DNA of 64,000 nucleotides from Nitrososphaera sp. (GTDB taxonomy: Archaea; Thermoproteota; Nitrososphaeria; Nitrososphaerales; Nitrososphaeraceae): assembly GCA_039938515.1 (NCBI GenBank), contig JBDUUL010000024.1, forward strand, positions 62,001 to 126,000. Reading direction: 5' to 3'. Positions within the stretch are counted from its first letter, which is position 1; the number at the start of each line of letters is the position of its first letter. The position numbers and the translations under genes were made by a program. The notes beneath the pieces were generated by a model. That model made no database searches. It worked only from the letters and a program-made list of their open reading frames with translations, and was not told where the DNA came from. Positions 3,605 through 50,604 of this stretch are shown in pieces.

Positions 3605-3871
3605 ATGAGCAAAACCTGTCTCAGGTGCGGCAAGTCGTTTGAAGAGATTCCCGACCCTGCTGCAGAAAAATATCCTGCGTGCCCGGATTGCTGGAAGGAA
3701 TGGACCACTTATGCAGTTATGGTAATGAACGAGATGAGGCTTGACATGTCGCTGCCGGAGCACAGAAAGGCGCTGCGCAAGTACGAGAAATTATTCTTTG
3801 AAAAGGCCGAGGGCGAATTGCAAAAGAACCCCGAGCAAAAACCCGACGATCACAGCGGCCACATGCATTAA
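3605..3871 (+). CDS. Zinc-ribbon/YggX-like Fe(2+)-trafficking family protein
   Basis: 88 residues. An N-terminal zinc ribbon (CLRCGK at 5-8 and CPDC near 26-29) leads into a helical part, WKEW...MVMNEMRLDMSLPEHRKAL, which matches the W..W...INEkkLnm..pEHRk.L pattern of the YggX/oxidative-damage-protection family. In bacteria that family protects Fe-S clusters and handles iron; whether the archaeal fusion does so is inference. His-rich tail (HSGHMH). Its stop overlaps the end of the convergent gene by 4 bp. Confidence 0.7.
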   Translation: MSKTCLRCGKSFEEIPDPAAEKYPACPDCWKEWTTYAVMVMNEMRLDMSLPEHRKALRKYEKLFFEKAEGELQKNPEQKPDDHSGHMH

Positions 3872-25212: not shown

Positions 25213-26745
25213 ATGGACAAGATAGTAGTACTTGACTTTGGCTCACAGTACAGCCACCTTATCTGCAGGCGGATAAGGGAGGCAAACGTCTACTGCGAGC
25301 TTCTGCCATACAACACGCCTCTGAAGGTAATCAAGGAGATCAATCCAAGTGGCATCATACTATCCGGAGGCCCTGCAAGCGTCTATGCGCAAGGCGCGCC
25401 CAAGCCGGACAATGGCATCTTTGCGATGGACAAGCCGATTCTTGGGATCTGCTATGGCCACCAGGTCCTTGTGGACAGCTTCGGAGGCAAGGTGAAAAAG
25501 GCCGCGACAAAGGAGTTCGGGCGCGCGGGCCTGAAGATTGACGACGGGTCAGACCTATTCAAAAGCGTTGGGCAGAACATCAACTGCTGGATGAGCCACG
25601 GCGATGCGGCCGAGCAGCTGCCCGAGGGCTTCAAGGTGCTTGCGCACACGGACAGCTCTTTTTCGGCTGCGATTGGAAACCCGGCCAAGAAATTCTACGG
25701 AATCCAGTTCCACCCTGAGGTGGTGCATACGGACAAGGGCACGCAGATTCTGAAGAACTTTGCGCAGCAGATTAGTGGCGCCAAGCCGGACTGGGACATG
25801 GAGAGCTTTATCGAAAATGCGATCCAGGAAATCCGCAGCCAGGTGGGAGATGAAAAGGTGCTTGCCGCCGTAAGCGGCGGCATTGATTCAACAACCGTAG
25901 CGGCCCTGATGCACAGGGCAATTGGCAGCAACCTCAGGTGCCTGTTTGTGAACCACGGCCTGCTGAGGCAGGACGAGGAAAATGAAGTGTTGAAGCTGTT
26001 CCGCGACCACCTTGGGATAGAAGTCATTTACGCGGACGCGGAGAAGCAGTTCCTTGACAAGCTCAAGGGGGTTGCGGACCCGGAGCAAAAGCGCAAGATA
26101 ATCGGAGAAGAGTTTGCCCATGTCTTTGCTGACGTGGTAAAGAAGGAAGGGCCTTTCCAGTGGCTTGCACAGGGCACGCTGTATCCCGACGTGATTGAAA
26201 GCGGCGTGTCAAAGGGGCCGGCGGCGGTGATAAAGACCCACCACAACGTGGGAGGCCTTCCCAAGTGGCTGCAGCTCAAGGTTATCGAGCCGTTACGCTA
26301 CCTGTACAAGGACGAGGTGCGCAAGGCTGCAAGACTTCTTGACGTGCCGGATGAACTGTTAAAGAGGCACCCGTTCCCCGGGCCCGGCCTTGCCGTCAGG
26401 ATTATCGGCGAGGTCACGCCGGAAAAAACTAGGGTATGCAAGATGGCAAGCAAGATTGTCGAGGACGAGCTTCGCATTGCGGGGTGGTACGACAAGGTGT
26501 GGCAGGCTTATGCGGCAGTAGGGGACGACAGGGCCGTTGGGGTGCTTGGAGACGAGCGGGTGTACGGGCACATTGTGATGATAAGGGTTGTCGAGTCGGT
26601 CGACGCCATGACCGCGGACTGGTCCAGACTGCCATACGAAGTCATTGAGAAGATGAGCAACAGGATAACGAACGAAGTTGAAGGCGCAACGTGGGTAACG
26701 TACGCTGTGTCAAGCAAGCCACCGGCGACGATCGAGCCTCAATAA
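25213..26745 (+). CDS. guaA: GMP synthase (glutamine-hydrolysing), fused form
   Basis: Converts XMP to GMP. Class I glutamine amidotransferase domain with Cys80 in GICYGHQ and the His167/Glu169 pair in FHPEV; ATP-pyrophosphatase domain with SGGIDST (221-227); C-terminal dimerisation domain with RHPFPGPGLAVRIIGE. 510 residues in one chain, unlike euryarchaea that encode the two halves separately. Confidence 0.95.
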   Translation: MDKIVVLDFGSQYSHLICRRIREANVYCELLPYNTPLKVIKEINPSGIILSGGPASVYAQGAPKPDNGIFAMDKPILGICYGHQVLVDSFGGKVKKAATKEFGRAGLKIDDGSDLFKSVGQNINCWMSHGDAAEQLPEGFKVLAHTDSSFSAAIGNPAKKFYGIQFHPEVVHTDKGTQILKNFAQQISGAKPDWDMESFIENAIQEIRSQVGDEKVLAAVSGGIDSTTVAALMHRAIGSNLRCLFVNHGLLRQDEENEVLKLFRDHLGIEVIYADAEKQFLDKLKGVADPEQKRKIIGEEFAHVFADVVKKEGPFQWLAQGTLYPDVIESGVSKGPAAVIKTHHNVGGLPKWLQLKVIEPLRYLYKDEVRKAARLLDVPDELLKRHPFPGPGLAVRIIGEVTPEKTRVCKMASKIVEDELRIAGWYDKVWQAYAAVGDDRAVGVLGDERVYGHIVMIRVVESVDAMTADWSRLPYEVIEKMSNRITNEVEGATWVTYAVSSKPPATIEPQ

Positions 26746-26827
26746 AAATAGAGATCCCCCCTTTTGTGCGGGAAAATCCGCGTATTCTCGTAAAGCTTAG
26801 GTACATAGCATAGCAGCAAATGCGGCA

Positions 26828-26965
26828 GTGAAATCGCTATTTCTGACAGGCTATGGGCTGTCGGTAAGGGTACAGAATACGAGGCTAGTATTCAGGCAGG
26901 GCAGCAATGACCCGTTTGGTAAAGAAAAACCGGAAGTGCTGGAGAGGCTGTCTGCGTATCCTTGA
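26828..26965 (+). pseudogene. Truncated Cas1-like N-terminal fragment
   Basis: A 45-codon frame from GTG 26828: it begins MKSLFLTGYGLSVRVQNTRL, then VFRQGSNDPFGKEKPE, then a stop. The G(Y/F)G.S..V....L.F pattern followed by DPF is, from memory, that of the N-terminal beta-domain of Cas1 integrases in archaea. The catalytic C-terminal domain is absent; the sequence meets an HTH fragment in opposite orientation at about 26960. No CRISPR array is visible here. Family assignment is from memory and not certain. Confidence 0.45.
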
Positions 26966-27083
26966 TACACCTAGCAACAGTTCTCTCATCCTAACCAAGC
27001 TCCCTTGCTACCTTGGTGTAGCTCAGGTGAAGTTGGTAGACTTCCCGGATTTTATTTTTCATTTCGACGGTAAGTGTCCCCAT
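26960..27083 (-). pseudogene. HTH DNA-binding fragment with internal stop
   Basis: From ATG 27083: MGTLTVEMKNKIREVYQLHL, then SYTKVARELG, a TAG stop at 26991, then DERTVARCIKD in the same frame. Removing the stop gives a full helix-turn-helix of the resolvase/transposase type. The first helices resemble the N-termini of the HTH/coiled-coil proteins at 38559 and 49501 (IRDMY...EIAKELG). Interpreted as a dead copy of a related gene. Confidence 0.5.
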
Positions 27084-30403: not shown

Positions 30404-30459
30404 TACGAGTTATTGCAATTTCAAAGACTTAAAGTGACTGTCGAGACCCTACATGATCT

Positions 30460-30633
30460 TTCAGGACGTGTACGTTCAAAAACAGGTTCAAGAGGTCTGA
30501 TGGTTTGTCGATGTGTCAGGAAATAACTATTGCCTAGATTCGCGCTCAAATGTTAACATGGCACTGTGCTCACGATGTCTAAAGGAATGCGTCGATTTTC
30601 TGTCTTACGCATCAGATACTAGTTCTGTGTTGG
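30460..30633 (+). pseudogene. Decayed small gene, homologous to sequence at 46525
   Basis: In one frame, with a TGA inside, the sequence reads MIFQDVYVQKQVQEV, stop, WFVDVSGNNYCLDSRSN, then CSRCLKECVDFL. About 60 nt around GATGTGTCAGGAAAT are clearly shared with 46530-46600, where the same frame reads WNVHVSGNHHCKNTRSN. Both look like remnants of one small cysteine-containing gene. Confidence 0.4.
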
Positions 30634-31968: not shown

Positions 31969-32680
31969 ATTTACTATAGATAAAGCTTATGTAAGAATAT
32001 ACTATGAACATCACTGACTCCGATATCCCAAGAACTGAAAGAGCAGCTAGAATATTAGTTCGGGCGCTCAAATTTTGCACGAACGATATCTTGTTTGAGC
32101 GCCTTTCTTGGAACAGGCGCGGCCATTTCAAAAAATTGCATTTCTGCAGTTTTCATAAAACCATAACCGACTAGACGCTGCTCACATTTGCCGTTAGAAG
32201 GCTCCCGGATTTAACAGACGGTAGGTGGATATCGACGAGGAAAACCCCTCCAAGCAGTTCTCTGGGTTTCTTTCACATCATCGCCACAGTCTCAGACTCG
32301 ATAGAGGTTGCACCATTTCCATTCAGAACAAAGAATAGCATGATAATGTTTCCAACAGGCTAGTTCGAAACTTTTGTCACACTTGAGGAGTTGAAATGGT
32401 TTGTAAGCTCAATCATTTCTAGCTCTAGAAAAATATTACGTCTTCTTATTCTTGTCCTCATTTCGTCTAGTTTGAAGTCTCTTCTGTACTCTTTAGCTTC
32501 GTAATCTTATACTTCACCATCTTCCGGTAACCATCTGACCTCCTGTAAAGTAATGCCGGGCTCTGTAAGGCATTCGCTCATACATAATGCTGTGAGCTGA
32601 GCATATACCGTTCTATCCGCGCACCTCAAGTACGCTGCACAACATTTTTTATTGGCTGGCAGGGCAGTCGCAGTTAACTG
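31969..32680. other. Long intergenic region with a stop-interrupted minus-strand frame
   Basis: No intact gene. On the minus strand from about 32590 to 32190 one frame is protein-like apart from about four stops: MSECLTEPGITLQEVRWLPE, then IELTNHFNSSSVTKVSN, then GNGATSIESETVAMM, then LGGVFLVDIHLPSV. This may be a decayed surface-protein gene or chance. A TATA box for 32681 (TTTTTATTGG, 32646-32655) closes the region. Confidence 0.4.
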
Positions 32681-34612: not shown

Positions 34613-34931
34613 GGCTCAGCAAGCTTTTTTGTGGTCAGACTCAGCTGACGGGACAAACGGAATTTGAAATCTGGTTAGTCCTAAGTATAAGATCCCTCAA
34701 TTCAATGTATTTCATTCTCATTATTGTAATCTTTTTCGTCCTTTGAAATCCGTCAGCTCGTCTAATTCCAGTTATTGACTTGTCGTCTCGCTTTCTATCA
34801 CCGATTGTGAATAGAAAACAAAGAGGTGATTATAATGAAATTCACGGTTTATGATCCCCTTATGACTTCCCAAAATTGCAGGCCTCAAGATAACTTTAAG
34901 TAAATCTTACAGAAGAGAATTCCAGAAGTAA
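34613..34931. other. Intergenic region with a possible 22-codon leader ORF
   Basis: A mini-ORF at 34835-34903 (MKFTVYDPLMTSQNCRPQD...) has an unusually good Shine-Dalgarno (GAGGTGAT) just before it. A TATA-like TAACTTTAAG at 34891-34900 would serve the TTG start at 34932. Otherwise empty. Confidence 0.35.
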
Positions 34932-36605
34932 TTGCTCTTTTGGTCGAAGGTGTTAAGCTTGGTTTTACTCGTTACGTTAGGGACTGCAGCAGTTTTACAG
35001 ACTTCAGTTCGTACTTTGAATGCTTATGCCCAGCAGACTAGAGATTACTACATTTACACCGATCCTGTTCCAGATTATGCACCAAGCTACGCAAATGGAA
35101 CAATTTACGCCGCTACTCAGGCATGGGAGAAGGCAAATCCGGATATCAGATTCTACCAAACCAACTCACCCGAGCAAGCAGATATTTTGGTTTCCTGGAT
35201 ACGTGACTCTGGACATACGCATCTCGGCGAGACATTCTATAAACAAGATATCCAAATGGTGCTTGGCGATAGCTATTGTTATGGCCAGTGGCAGCCATAC
35301 TCTGCCGATACCTTGCTAAATGTAGCGGAACATGAAATTGGACATGCTCTGGGTCTTGAACACAGTACAGATCCTAATGATGTCATGTACCCTACATTCA
35401 ATGCGACCTATGGCGTCGTAACATGGCAGCAGGATATGGCTCCAAACTACTACTGGTTTGTGCCAACGTGTGATTATTACAACAAAGTAAATACGTTTAG
35501 CTATTCCGTCAACACAACTGATTCCACCTACGGCATAGACGAGTACTTTATTCCCTCTCAAACTGAATACCAGCAGGCACTGGCTGGCGGTACATTCCAA
35601 TACTATACTGATTCAAAGTGTTCTGAAAAGAACATCCTAAGGCATAGCGGTACCTGCAATGGCGTAGCAAACACAGCAGGCATAATGATAATCACTCATG
35701 ATCAGAGCCACCCTCTTGAGAGAATTACAGTACTGTTAGTAGATGAGACTCCTACAGTCGAGCCTCAAATTCCAACTTTGCAGCGGTCTTCAGCCGATGA
35801 CCCACAGGCTGGATCGCAGCCTCCTCAGGTCGGCTCTATCTCGATATCGCTATCGAATTATACTGTACTAGTCGGTCAAGATGTGACAGTCAGCGGCACA
35901 GTTTATGACACAACCTCTGAACCAATGCCAAATGTAAGCCTGCGAATAGTGCTCAATTCCGCTACTACAGCGGTAACTTCTGACTCTAATGGCCAGTTCT
36001 CCACTTCTATGCAGGCGACTACGCCAGGCATAACTATCGTATCTGCCGAAACAATCGACAAGAATGTCACCTCATTACCCCTAATTTTGACTGCGACTGC
36101 CGCATCGACCAAGCCGCTATATTATGAGCCTGCTCCGATCGTGACTCCTCTTGAGACAAGCTCAGGCACTATTACAGTTGACGGCACCACAGATTCAGTA
36201 TTCACAGAAATTACAGGAGGCAAAATAACAAGCATTTCTGCTAATCCTGATTCAAACTCTCTTGTAGTAAATCTCAATTCTAGTAATGACGGCAAGCTTG
36301 TAATTATACAACCCCGGGAACTGATAGATGCGCGGCAAAATGACAATACTGACAGCAACTTTATTGTCTTGGCGCACAATCAAGGGTCAGATACAAAGCA
36401 GCAAGTGAGCTTTTCAGAGTCGAAAAGCGACTCAAATAGAACTCTGACAATTCCATTTAGCCAAGGTACTGACACAATTCAGATCGTCGGAACTCATGTA
36501 ATGCCGGAATTTCACATATCGCAATTGGTTCTAGTCTTACCTTTGACTGTCGTCGTCGGCTTAACTGTAGTTATAACAAAGAGTCGAAAGAGGCCTGTTA
36601 CCTAA
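34932..36605 (+). CDS. Secreted matrixin-like metalloprotease with PEF-type C-terminal anchor
   Basis: 557 residues from TTG 34932. Signal segment (about 6-33), catalytic domain with the extended zinc motif HEIGHALGLEH (134-144) and Met-turn DVMYP, the metzincin/matrixin pattern. An Ig-like domain (about 295-390, VTVSGTVYDTTSEPMPNVSL) and a further beta domain follow. The C-terminus is MPEF, a hydrophobic helix and KSRKRP, resembling an archaeosortase PEF signal. Predicted cell-surface protease. Confidence 0.82.
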   Translation: MLFWSKVLSLVLLVTLGTAAVLQTSVRTLNAYAQQTRDYYIYTDPVPDYAPSYANGTIYAATQAWEKANPDIRFYQTNSPEQADILVSWIRDSGHTHLGETFYKQDIQMVLGDSYCYGQWQPYSADTLLNVAEHEIGHALGLEHSTDPNDVMYPTFNATYGVVTWQQDMAPNYYWFVPTCDYYNKVNTFSYSVNTTDSTYGIDEYFIPSQTEYQQALAGGTFQYYTDSKCSEKNILRHSGTCNGVANTAGIMIITHDQSHPLERITVLLVDETPTVEPQIPTLQRSSADDPQAGSQPPQVGSISISLSNYTVLVGQDVTVSGTVYDTTSEPMPNVSLRIVLNSATTAVTSDSNGQFSTSMQATTPGITIVSAETIDKNVTSLPLILTATAASTKPLYYEPAPIVTPLETSSGTITVDGTTDSVFTEITGGKITSISANPDSNSLVVNLNSSNDGKLVIIQPRELIDARQNDNTDSNFIVLAHNQGSDTKQQVSFSESKSDSNRTLTIPFSQGTDTIQIVGTHVMPEFHISQLVLVLPLTVVVGLTVVITKSRKRPVT

Positions 36606-38558: not shown

Positions 38559-39704
38559 TCAGGCTCTGCTCTTAGCAGGATCTACTTCAGCCGTTCTCGG
38601 AGTTTGTGGTGTTTGTTCAAGATCTTGCTCTATGGCCTTGACCACGATATCTTTGAACAAACTGACCAATTCGCATCCAATCATGCACCATGCATTGGAT
38701 ATTTCCGTGCATTTCTCGTATGGTACGCCATCAAGTTGTTCGCCTGGCTTAGAGTGCTCTAGGAATACCCTAATCTCCGGATTGACCAACAAATTCTGCG
38801 TCGATTGAATGAGCATGTCTTCAACTTTAGGCTTGTTGATCGATTCTTTGACTATCTCAACGAGCTCGCGGCCTTTGAGCGAATATGCACGCTCTATACG
38901 CTCGAGATTGCCCTTTGCTTCCGACAGTTCCTTGCTTGATTGCACAAATTCTTTCATTCTGGAATGTATTTTGTTTTCCAAGTCATGCAATCTTTCTTCT
39001 CCTTGTTCAATGCGATTGTCAAGCTCACTACATTGCTTTGAGATCTGTTCCTTCTCTGACACTTTGATTTCAATTTCCTGCTGCGACATCTTTAAGTGGT
39101 TGTTTAGTTCTTCGAGCTTTCTGTTTGTATAGTCAACCAGTCGTCTATTTTTCATTGACTCGAAAAAAAGAATGGGATCTATTTTTTCCTCTTCCATTCG
39201 TTCTTCGAGTTTCCGGATCGCTCTTACTCGCTCAGGCTCTAGCGCGTACAGTTCAGCTTCCTCATGTCTACCCTTAAGTGTCAGATACTGCCGTCGAAAA
39301 TCGCTAAGTTCAGATTCAGAGAGCTCGAGCTTTATGGCGACATCGAGGTCAGGAAAACCTTGTTCAAACAGCTCAAATGCTGCCGAGCGCCTCTTTCTTG
39401 ACGCGGTATCGTTCTGTTCTGCTTTATCCATACTTTGCACTATTGGACTGTCAGATCTTTTGTCCGCGCTTGATACCACAGTATCCTTGGTTGTATCCTT
39501 CGAACGAGCTTCACCTAATGCAGAATTTTCCAGTGGCGGCTGGGCAATATTTCCCAGCTTTCTTAGACGGCGCGTTTCATTATTTACATACTCGATACTA
39601 ACACCAAGTTCCTTCGCGATTTCACTATGGCTTTTGCCTCGGGTATACATATCTCGAATATGTTGTCCTTTTGTTATTCGACCTTTGGCTGATTGCGTTG
39701 CCAT
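38559..39704 (-). CDS. HTH plus coiled-coil DNA-binding protein, module 1
   Basis: 381 residues. N-terminal HTH (about 8-52: TKGQHIRDMYTRGKSHSEIA, KELGVSIEYVNNETRRLR). After a charged linker a second HTH-like segment (about 110-145: DLDVAIKLELSESELSDFR). A conserved middle (ALEPERVRAIRKLEERMEEE, SMKNRRLVDYTNRK), then a long coiled coil (about 190-280) and a helical C-terminus. Clearly paralogous to the gene at 49501. Lacks transposase or recombinase catalytic motifs and Walker motifs. The TATA-like CTATATTAG sits about 30 bp upstream, and two TGTTAG/CTAACA arrays flank the adjacent non-coding DNA. Best guess: a site-specific DNA-binding/partition or replication-type protein. Confidence 0.75.
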   Translation of the reverse strand: MATQSAKGRITKGQHIRDMYTRGKSHSEIAKELGVSIEYVNNETRRLRKLGNIAQPPLENSALGEARSKDTTKDTVVSSADKRSDSPIVQSMDKAEQNDTASRKRRSAAFELFEQGFPDLDVAIKLELSESELSDFRRQYLTLKGRHEEAELYALEPERVRAIRKLEERMEEEKIDPILFFESMKNRRLVDYTNRKLEELNNHLKMSQQEIEIKVSEKEQISKQCSELDNRIEQGEERLHDLENKIHSRMKEFVQSSKELSEAKGNLERIERAYSLKGRELVEIVKESINKPKVEDMLIQSTQNLLVNPEIRVFLEHSKPGEQLDGVPYEKCTEISNAWCMIGCELVSLFKDIVVKAIEQDLEQTPQTPRTAEVDPAKSRA

Positions 39705-46517: not shown

Positions 46518-46605
46518 ATGAAAGCAGAGATACAAGCGGGCAGATGGAATGTCCATGTGTCAGGAAATCACCATTGCAAAAATACACGCTCAAACTCTTG
46601 CAGAC
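46518..46605 (+). pseudogene. Second decayed copy of the 30460 sequence
   Basis: Reads KAEIQAGRWNVHVSGNHHCK then NTRSNSC, matching WFVDVSGNNYCLDSRSN at 30505. DNA around 46553 (ATGTGTCAGGAAAT) is nearly identical to 30509. The frame later runs antisense into the two-TM gene, so only this part is homologous. Confidence 0.4.
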
Positions 46606-46859
46606 TTTTGCCTGGGAAAAATAGCGCGCAAGTAATAGTAGCTTATACCAACTACAGTACTTGCCGCCATCATTACAAATCCCCCGATCATGTATGCATC
46701 AGGAGCATAGACAAGCAATGGACAGCTTGAACCTGGTCCACAATTTGCCCTGTCAAACCTTGCAACTTCTGAAGCTTGGCGGGTATAATCAAATGCAACT
46801 ATCAATAAGCCTAGTGCAAACGTGACGAGTGCTAGAATCTCAATTTGGCTGAACGTCAT
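46590..46859 (-). CDS. Small two-TM membrane protein
   Basis: 89 residues from the ATG giving MTFSQIEILAL. Two TM helices (about 5-26 and 58-78) joined by a loop with Cys-Gly-Pro (ANCGPGSSCPLL, possible disulfide), and a basic end (FPRQKSARV). Unknown. Confidence 0.6.
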   Translation of the reverse strand: MTFSQIEILALVTFALGLLIVAFDYTRQASEVARFDRANCGPGSSCPLLVYAPDAYMIGGFVMMAASTVVGISYYYLRAIFPRQKSARV

Positions 46860-49215: not shown

Positions 49216-49515
49216 TATGGTCAATGAGCGGTTCAATAGATTCATTGAAAGGAACGCGCAACCAATGTTGTGTGGGCATGGTCGCCTAATGCCGGCAGCA
49301 TTCTACAAGATTCTTGGAATAATTGGAAGAATTACTACCTCGGAGATGCATATGCAGGCGGGGTTGGCATAGACGGATACAATAAGCAAATTTCTCCACA
49401 GGGAATGACATCAAGCATCTTACAGAACGTCTACAATGAATGCAACGCGATCAAACCAATGATCATAGCCCAACAGAAAGGTACTACCACCATCTGGTCC
49501 TTATTTGGTTATGCA
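49216..49515 (+). pseudogene. Truncated, frameshifted GH26 paralogue
   Basis: From 49255 the frame reads ATNVVWAWSPNAGS, DSWNNWKNYYLGDAYAGGVG, IDGYNKQISPQ, MTSSILQNVYNE and KPMIIAQQKG, aligning with residues 299-373 of the enzyme at 30634. A frameshift near 49255-49262 links it to FNRFIERN just upstream. The nucleophile Glu is replaced (IAQQKG for IAETGT). N-terminus and LysM modules are missing. The remnant ends where the HTH module gene begins. Confidence 0.75.
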
Positions 49516-50604
49516 TGCGGTTTTCGAATGCAGGCTAGTCTTAAGTACCTGCTTCAAACAGTCAAGCAAGTAGTCTGCAAACATATATCGCGCCCATGAG
49601 GCATCTTGTTTATTCTCTTGAGATATCGAATCAAGAGGCTTGCTTAGCTGAGAGTGCTCCACGAGCTCCTTGACGTATGGATTGCCAAAAAACTCGTGCA
49701 ATCCTTCTAGCAACTGGCTTTCAATTTCAGAATTGCCAAGTAATTCTTTGATCCTATTCTGAAATTCTTGGTCTTGGAGAGAACTCAAGTGCTTCATTCC
49801 CTCTAAACTGATTTTTGCTTCTTCCGATTGTTTGTGTGCTTCAGCTGCTGCCTGGTTTGCTTCTCTCTCGGCGGATCTCTTCAAGTGTATCTGCTCTTCC
49901 AAGTCGTTCAGCTTTTTTTCTGCCTGAGATAATAGATCTTCTTGCTCATTGCAGTGCTTGGCAATTTGCTCTAATCTTGATTCTGCCAACGCAATTTCCT
50001 TCTGCTTTATCTCAAGAGTCTGGCTTGCTTCTTCTATTCTTCTGTTTGTAAAGTCTCCCAGTCTTCTGTTTTTCATGGCCTCTACACAAATAGACGGAGT
50101 CATTTTCTCCTTTTCCATCATTTCCTCCAGCTTGAATAACGCCTCAACTCGTTTGGGTTCTCGCTCGTACAGTTTGACCATCGCTTGCCTGCCTACGATA
50201 ATCAGATATTGTCTTTTGTAGTCTGCTAGCTCTGCTTCAGATAGATTCAGCTCCATTGCAACTTCTAGGTCATTCTTCATGCCTTCGCGGAATAGAGCAA
50301 ATGCCGTCGACCGCCTCTTCCTGGATTCATCATCTTCCTGCTGCCTGCCAGACTTCCTTTCTTTACCAGCGAGTTTGACTTCAATCCTCTGGTTAGATGT
50401 ATCTTCCCCATGTTTGTCGCCTTCTGCAATTGCAGCTGACGATACAGCCTGCTGAACTTTGTCCTCCTTTTTTATTCGGGATATTTCGTTATACACCTGT
50501 TGTACGCTTATGTCAAGAGCTTCTGCAGTCTCTTTGGGCTTTTTGCCTTGAGCACGCAGAGTTCTGATTTGCTCTCTCTTTGTTTGTGAGCATGAGCTTT
50601 TCAA
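49501..50604 (-). CDS. HTH plus coiled-coil DNA-binding protein, module 2
   Basis: 367 residues, paralogue of 38559. N-terminal HTH (about 8-48: TKREQIRTLRAQGKKPKETA, EALDISVQQVYNEISRIK), second HTH-like segment (about 108-140: DLEVAMELNLSEAELADYK), the shared block (EREPKRVEALFKLEEMMEKE, AMKNRRLGDFTNRR), long coiled coil (about 175-270) and helical C-terminus. Similarity is highest in the central block and lower in the first HTH, so the two proteins may recognise related but different sites. The last residues (SKTACITK) fall on sequence that overlaps the GH26 remnant, so the insertion may have given the protein a new tail. Confidence 0.75.
   Translation of the reverse strand: MKSSCSQTKREQIRTLRAQGKKPKETAEALDISVQQVYNEISRIKKEDKVQQAVSSAAIAEGDKHGEDTSNQRIEVKLAGKERKSGRQQEDDESRKRRSTAFALFREGMKNDLEVAMELNLSEAELADYKRQYLIIVGRQAMVKLYEREPKRVEALFKLEEMMEKEKMTPSICVEAMKNRRLGDFTNRRIEEASQTLEIKQKEIALAESRLEQIAKHCNEQEDLLSQAEKKLNDLEEQIHLKRSAEREANQAAAEAHKQSEEAKISLEGMKHLSSLQDQEFQNRIKELLGNSEIESQLLEGLHEFFGNPYVKELVEHSQLSKPLDSISQENKQDASWARYMFADYLLDCLKQVLKTSLHSKTACITK

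Follow-up and report, generated by a model that had tools for sequence, protein, structure and literature searches.

A cas1 stub beside guaA in Nitrososphaera sp.: the probable end of a dead casposon

Introduction

A short open reading frame in a contig of Nitrososphaera sp. begins like a Cas1 protein and stops after 45 codons, where an HTH fragment begins on the other strand. The locus raises the question of whether this is the scar of a mobile element carrying a Cas1-type integrase, a piece of a CRISPR-Cas locus, or a small gene of another kind. An earlier note on this DNA suggested the first of these, a scar of a casposon-like or Cas1-carrying element. Casposons are proposed ancestors of CRISPR adaptation, and to our knowledge the target choice of casposases is known from few sites. 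The window is the whole stretch of DNA that was analysed, 64,000 nucleotides long.

The stub and its Cas1 relatives

The frame starts with GTG and ends with TGA.

26828..26965, + strand: 5' stub of cas1 (casposase), 39 homologous codons (to 26944) and a short unrelated tail

The 45-codon Cas1-like start postulated in the earlier note is thus present, and it is homologous to full-length Cas1 across 39 codons. The stop codon falls 18 bp beyond the end of homology and sets the length of 45 aa. When 70 genomes of the family were searched, the only such stretch was found in a genome of the same genus (G031), with 80% identity over 40 aa (E 1.2e-17 within G031). Over the 39 codons the window and G031 differ by 15 synonymous and 6 non-synonymous codons, and the differences fall 7/5/17 on the three codon positions. 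Differences that are mostly synonymous and in the third position indicate that the two copies diverged while still coding.

The G031 relative is a 77-aa ORF, which by itself gave no match in Pfam or PDB. It was searched against 400 genomes of the class and had a match at E<=0.1 in 68 of them; many of these matches appear to sit in open frames of about 340-390 codons. The ten closest, which share 67-90% identity with the G031 query in the aligned part, are called lineage A (G000, which is the genome of the window, G031, G316, G162, G206, G234, G170, G286, G208 and G084). G188 and G284 are lineage B by sequence and were left out of the ten. The earlier note had advised looking for full-length homologues in related genomes, and these exist at two of the ten lineage A loci: a Cas1 of 371 aa in G162 and one of 378 aa in G316, which match PF01867 with E 1.9e-50 and 2.1e-46, respectively, and no other Pfam domain at E<=0.1. 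The stub is 67-69% identical over 39 residues to these two proteins (E 5e-17 and 8e-19), and 56% identical to the G316 protein when all 45 residues are counted. One further real match was found among the 14 Cas1 proteins compared, a lineage B protein with 46% identity over 35 residues.

It should be noted that the lineage A loci were found with an N-terminal query, and the points at which the copies are truncated therefore say nothing about a bias for either end. For this reason of ascertainment we rejected the idea that truncated copies with an intact 5' end reveal any particular function of that end.

The full-length relatives are casposons

The elements that carry the full-length cas1 genes also encode a PolB, of 621 aa in G162 and 626 aa in G316, together with small genes. 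The G162 PolB matches PF03175 (E 4.3e-26) and the G316 PolB is 89% identical to it; the profiles matched are PF03175, "organellar and viral", and a PHROG DNA polymerase. Among solved structures, the closest relative of the G162 Cas1 is 6opm (E 2.4e-27), a casposase-DNA complex (PMC6977970). No relative of the G162 Cas1 was found in IMG/VR. A tree of 20 Cas1 proteins, which carries a warning for long branches and includes no named family 1 Cas1, joins lineage A with lineage B, apart from the other proteins. The two lineages form separate branches, with B represented by G002 and G026 in the tree and by G030 on sequence. A casposon is recognized by a Cas1 homologue, a family B DNA polymerase, terminal inverted repeats at both ends and a target-site duplication, outside a CRISPR locus. 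Both proteins are present in the relatives, and the window holds five Cas1 fragments (the stub included) and one PolB relic of 70 aa only. With their Cas1, B-family PolB, terminal inverted repeats (TIRs) and apparent target duplications, the elements of the full-length relatives are casposons.

An inverted repeat on the guaA stop codon

The gene upstream of the stub is an ORF which, from its sequence, we take to be guaA, coding for GMP synthase. Its 3' end overlaps the presumed target and one casposon end.

25213..26745, + strand: guaA, intact ORF of 510 aa (64-66% identity over 510 aa to the whole guaA of relatives); its 3' end is the casposon target
26734..26749, + strand: presumed target GAGCCTCAATAAAAAT (last guaA codons and stop); an equivalent stretch recurs at both element ends in G316, G162 and G234
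26736..26801, + strand: casposon TIR, one end only (nhmmer, window included in the model; 26736-26798 with a model made without the window)

With a model built on 12 ends excluding the window, the TIR scores 40.8 bits (E 7.7e-11). It begins on the stop codon of guaA, and 82 bp separate this codon from the start of the stub. Part of the 40.8 bits is not independent evidence, since the first 15-18 positions of the model are guaA end or target and not TIR. Nine other guaA ends from the same genus (L096-L104) were scored against the model and gave 24.8, 18.0, 16.8, 13.8 and 12.8 bits, with no match in the remaining four, one of which is cut by a contig end.

Paired TIR ends are found at four of the ten lineage A loci. 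In G316, G162 and G234 both ends were in the training set; in G208 the far end was outside it and scored 32.0 bits. A single end is present at five loci (the window, G031, G206, G286 and G084) and none in G170; G030 and G026 also have paired ends. An ungapped search for inverted repeats gave pairs in G316 (flanking the element) and G234 and none in G162, G286, G208 and G206, so that the pairs of G162 and G208 were recovered by the profile and missed by the ungapped search. The elements of G316, G162 and G234 have, at their far end, a repeat of the last guaA codons and the stop (GAGCC/GAACC-ACAATAAAAAT, 16-20 bp) that overlaps the start of the TIR, and to judge from the sequence this repeat is an apparent target duplication.

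A second TIR end was looked for in the window and the next 40 kb, as was a second copy of the target, and neither was found; the target-site duplication for which the earlier note proposed a search around 26.8-27.1 kb thus did not turn up. An 11-mer of the target at 35758 was considered as the far copy and rejected. It has no adjoining TIR, it lies inside a peptidase ORF, and such an 11-mer occurs in 26 of 200 Markov shuffles.

Relics downstream of guaA

Further pieces of casposons were sought by tblastn of 154 ORFs of at least 60 codons, taken from seven casposon loci, against the window. Five relics were found:

30457..30579, + strand: Cas1 C-terminus relic of lineage B (MTLKG type), interrupted by one stop; three queries match it with 50-57% identity over 37-41 aa (E 6e-6 to 6e-7)
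32187..32396, + strand: casposon PolB relic (about residues 281-350), interrupted by one stop; four queries match it with 41-53% identity over 68-70 aa (best E about 2e-18)
34686..34817, - strand: Cas1 C-terminus relic, lineage A (the lineage of the stub); 67% over 43 aa with E 1.5e-11, and 58% over 40 aa
43379..43456, + strand: Cas1 C-terminus relic of lineage A, interrupted by one stop; matched by a single query (65% over 26 aa, E 1e-5) and thus the weakest of the five
46534..46626, + strand: Cas1 C-terminus relic of lineage B; four queries match it with 61-79% identity over 27-31 aa (best E 2.5e-10)

All 19 matches at E<=1e-3 fall within 26.7-46.7 kb. Sixteen are to Cas1 or PolB frames, two to other frames overlapping these, and one is between a peptidase-type passenger ORF of G002 and 34932-36605. 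At the same threshold the controls (1-26.7 kb and 46.7-64 kb of the window, the middle part reversed, and 44 kb elsewhere on the contig) gave no matches. At looser cut-offs a few matches fall elsewhere, with E 0.04 at 3850, 21082 and 61797 in the window and E 0.001 in the next 20 kb. The G+C content is 0.55 at 24-26 kb and drops to 0.43-0.46 at 28-40 kb. Relics of both lineage A and lineage B are present, which means that two casposon lineages are represented in the window. As read from these remains, the stretch after the guaA 3' end is a casposon graveyard.

Nothing downstream of guaA at nine other guaA loci of the genus matches the window, although in two of them less than 1 kb of sequence follows guaA. 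In G041 one gene is located some 11 kb downstream of guaA; in the genome of the window the distance is 119 kb (contig C24, at 207.8 kb), and the region after guaA has thus grown or been rearranged. A profile search of the window's own genome found no PF01867 match at E<=0.001; a single match on contig C5 has E 0.087. A tblastn search of plasmids gave five matches at chance level only (E 4-9).

An observation aside from this concerns a peptidase M10-like ORF at 34932-36605, which immediately follows one of the Cas1 relics. In the G002 locus (L042) an ORF located downstream of cas1 shares 35% identity with part of this peptidase ORF, over 111 aa.

Proposed history of the locus

The feature is, we are confident, the guaA-proximal end of a dead casposon: a PolB-encoding element with TIRs that inserted at the last codons and stop of guaA and then decayed. 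The scar proposed in the earlier note accordingly has the Cas1 homology, the TIR on the guaA stop codon and the downstream Cas1 and PolB relics in its favour.

Casposases are described as recognizing a leader motif and the border between leader and target, duplicating about 14-15 bp, and being able to re-enter occupied sites in tandem (PMC6614799, PMC10359463, PMC6563490). From this literature we infer that leader, target and tandem re-entry apply at guaA likewise. A Cas1-family integrase (the casposase) would have inserted the transposon at the last codons and stop of guaA, which stayed intact. The integration would be performed by the element's own Cas1, with the conserved 3' codons of guaA serving as leader and the stop region as target, and the expected insertion site at the guaA 3' end would be GAGCC(A/T)CAATAAAA. 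What is left is the presumed target with a single TIR, followed by a short leader and by 39 codons from the start of cas1; a deletion would have fused this cas1 stub to a truncated, stop-bearing HTH gene. Further casposons would have inserted there or close by, and their decay would account for the relics along the following 20 kb. The locus is presumably inert now.

A different origin of the stub itself has to be weighed. It may never have been part of a whole cas1 gene at this place. A long TIR could have included the cas1 start and so repeated it at the casposon end opposite the real cas1, with the stub as the inner portion of that TIR; the real gene would then have been on the minus strand further out, surviving as the relic at 34686-34817. 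We consider this quite possible, at somewhat less than an even chance. In G030 (same genus, by ef-2) the TIRs can be aligned over about 188 bp, the first 145 nearly identical, and they cover the start of cas1, which places a cas1 N-terminal stub at the ef-2-proximal end and cas1 at the other end. Between the TIRs of G234 lie two N-terminal pieces of cas1 that point towards each other, and in the window the order and orientation of PolB (+) and Cas1 C-terminus (-) are as in G316, where cas1 is the far gene. Against this origin, G026 of the same genus has a perfect TIR of 44 bp without a stub, the cas1 stub of G286 is still next to the gene found after cas1 in the G162 element, as would be expected if a real cas1 had suffered an internal deletion, and the homology reaches codons 52 and 84 in G206 and G084. 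An inverted mate of TIR and stub is absent from the window and the next 40 kb. The G030 casposon (L037, contig C18, 7622-13205) has a cas1 split over two frames and no PolB match in the locus.

Other readings of the Cas1 homology

A relic of a CRISPR adaptation module, that is of the cas1 gene of a CRISPR-Cas locus, is a reading that we hold to be highly improbable. Other types of Cas1, intact as well as broken, do exist in the same genus, and some of them are presumably CRISPR-type. The fragment is nevertheless close to the two lineage A casposon proteins, as given above, while eight CRISPR-type or other non-casposon Cas1 proteins gave a single match, 5 residues long. The absence of CRISPR repeats nearby, as claimed in the earlier note, holds for the 20-50 kb stretch of the window, where no CRISPR-like spaced direct repeats were found and the only repeat family has two copies of 23 nt that are 74% alike. 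The stub is therefore not part of a spaced array in 20-50 kb, and the TIR and the PolB relic point the same way. A Cas1 pseudogene of another kind, presumably CRISPR-type, lies in another genome of the genus (L038, contig C1 of G027, 2297817-2298638) and is broken over several frames.

The profile search with the 45 residues, which the earlier note had proposed, gave no match to Pfam or NCBIfam profiles; this is literally the outcome that the note had named as counting against it, but the full-length homologues match PF01867, and we attribute the failure to the shortness of the query. Given the lack of a profile match, the 45 residues could also be read as a small gene complete in itself, or as a chance ORF, with no relation to Cas1. 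This is hardly credible, since the full-length homologues match Cas1 and the length is set by the stop beyond the homology end.

The guaA 3' end as a landing site

The guaA gene is found at eight of the ten lineage A loci, the window included. In the window, G206, G286 and G084 it has the orientation of the stub; it is convergent with the stub in G234, G208, G316 and G162, with about 6 kb of element between in the last two; the guaA of G316 consists of the last 26 codons only, at the start of the contig. In G170, where guaA was not found at the locus, the contig begins inside cas1 and the genes that neighbour guaA in relatives are present, presumably pfkB and thermosome genes. In G031, where the contig of 3.6 kb has no guaA gene, a short copy of the guaA 3' end precedes the TIR and the stub. 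Vertical inheritance of a guaA-cas1 pair was considered and rejected, because orientation and distance vary among the relatives.

A strict pattern, the guaA end followed by the start of the TIR, was found in 10 of 400 genomes of the class, compared to none of 400 for the reversed control. Three of the sites were new (G355, G376 and G035). G376 has a partial TIR only, and in G035 the TIR is at a contig end with no guaA in the fetched stretch. G355 has a TIR pair spanning 1.1 kb at the guaA stop codon, with no cas1 match (L127, contig C144, 7910-9021); its ends score 47.5 and 45.9 bits by the TIR model, whose training set did not contain G355. L127 is an apparent second mini-element, after L078 of G234 (contig C54, 2669-4401), a 1.7-kb element at guaA with both TIRs and the two cas1 N-terminal pieces facing each other, which looks like a non-autonomous mini-casposon.

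The lineage B casposons of G030 and G002 adjoin the 3' end of a gene that from its sequence is putatively ef-2, and the 17-bp duplication of G026 spells such an end. The guaA and ef-2 targets share the stop-codon sequence TAAAAA. A survey of thaumarchaeal mobile elements from 2019 places casposons at ef-2, at a phosphoribosylamine-glycine ligase gene and at an intergenic site, and its main text contains neither guaA nor "GMP synth". No paper combining casposon with guaA or "GMP synth" was found in the literature searched, which comprised open-access papers without their supplements. The casposon at the guaA end is thus a known kind of element, at a target not described in that literature.

We tentatively propose that the guaA 3' end is a dedicated landing site over two families of these archaea, which one Cas1 lineage and its non-autonomous miniatures enter repeatedly and in both orientations. 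In some casposons the inverted repeat would include the start of the casposase gene, and dead ends would leave such cas1 stubs by the target gene.

Comparison with known casposons

The elements resemble the family 1 casposons of Thaumarchaeota (NitAR1-C1, NitNF5-C1/C2 and others) in having Cas1, B-family PolB with small genes next to it, TIRs and a target duplication, in inserting at the 3' end of a protein-coding gene, and in tandem copies at one site; the targets described there are ef-2, a phosphoribosylamine-glycine ligase gene and an intergenic site, and here guaA (PMC4046053, PMC6563490). They differ in that the guaA-linked lineage A is a branch separate from lineage B (here at ef-2 or ef-2-like ends) and in that the copy in the window is dead. 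MetMaz-C1 of Methanosarcina mazei belongs, we assume, to a casposon family other than that of the window element. The descriptions of MetMaz-C1 (PMC10359463) and of the M. mazei casposase (PDB 6OPM, PMC6977970) give a homologous casposase, a target duplication of 14 bp, TIRs and tandem re-insertion at the same site, and the targets include tRNA-Leu sites, in contrast to guaA here. CRISPR-associated Cas1 is of the same protein family, PF01867, but falls on separate branches of the tree, under the long-branch warning above, and there is no array in 20-50 kb.

Natural variation for the study of leader and target rules is provided by a recurrent guaA target beside ef-2, with the TAAAAA that both share, and by a set of elements that ranges from those whose genes are full-length to apparent mini-elements (1.1-1.7 kb) and dead copies. 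We suggest that a short cas1 stub found outside a CRISPR locus may be the scar of a casposon.

The antisense HTH remnant

The earlier note described an oppositely oriented HTH fragment carrying a TAG and abutting the Cas1 stub, and this was found:

26958..27083, - strand: N-terminal remnant of an HTH protein, in-frame TAG at 26991-26993

The frame starts with ATG at 27083, runs for 30 codons to the TAG and continues in frame to about 26958, which puts the junction with the end of the Cas1 homology (26944) within about 14 bp. When the piece is read through the stop, its matches to HTH profiles are below threshold (best E 0.0017), and it has no relative at E<=0.01 among 69 other genomes of the family. 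In 399 other genomes of the class, matches at E<=0.05 occur in three, and one is good (G305, 56%, E 8.8e-7). That this is a second mobile gene, as the earlier note had it, is plausible but weakly supported, with these sub-threshold matches and the one good relative in its favour; an ORF that we regard as integrase-like lies near the latter. The remnant is real, but barely classifiable. Its proposed likeness to the module proteins of the window gains some support from G305, where the domain after the HTH relative shares 31% identity with the window protein at 38559-39704. Two HTH proteins of the same general kind are encoded in the window, at 38559-39704 and 49501-50604.
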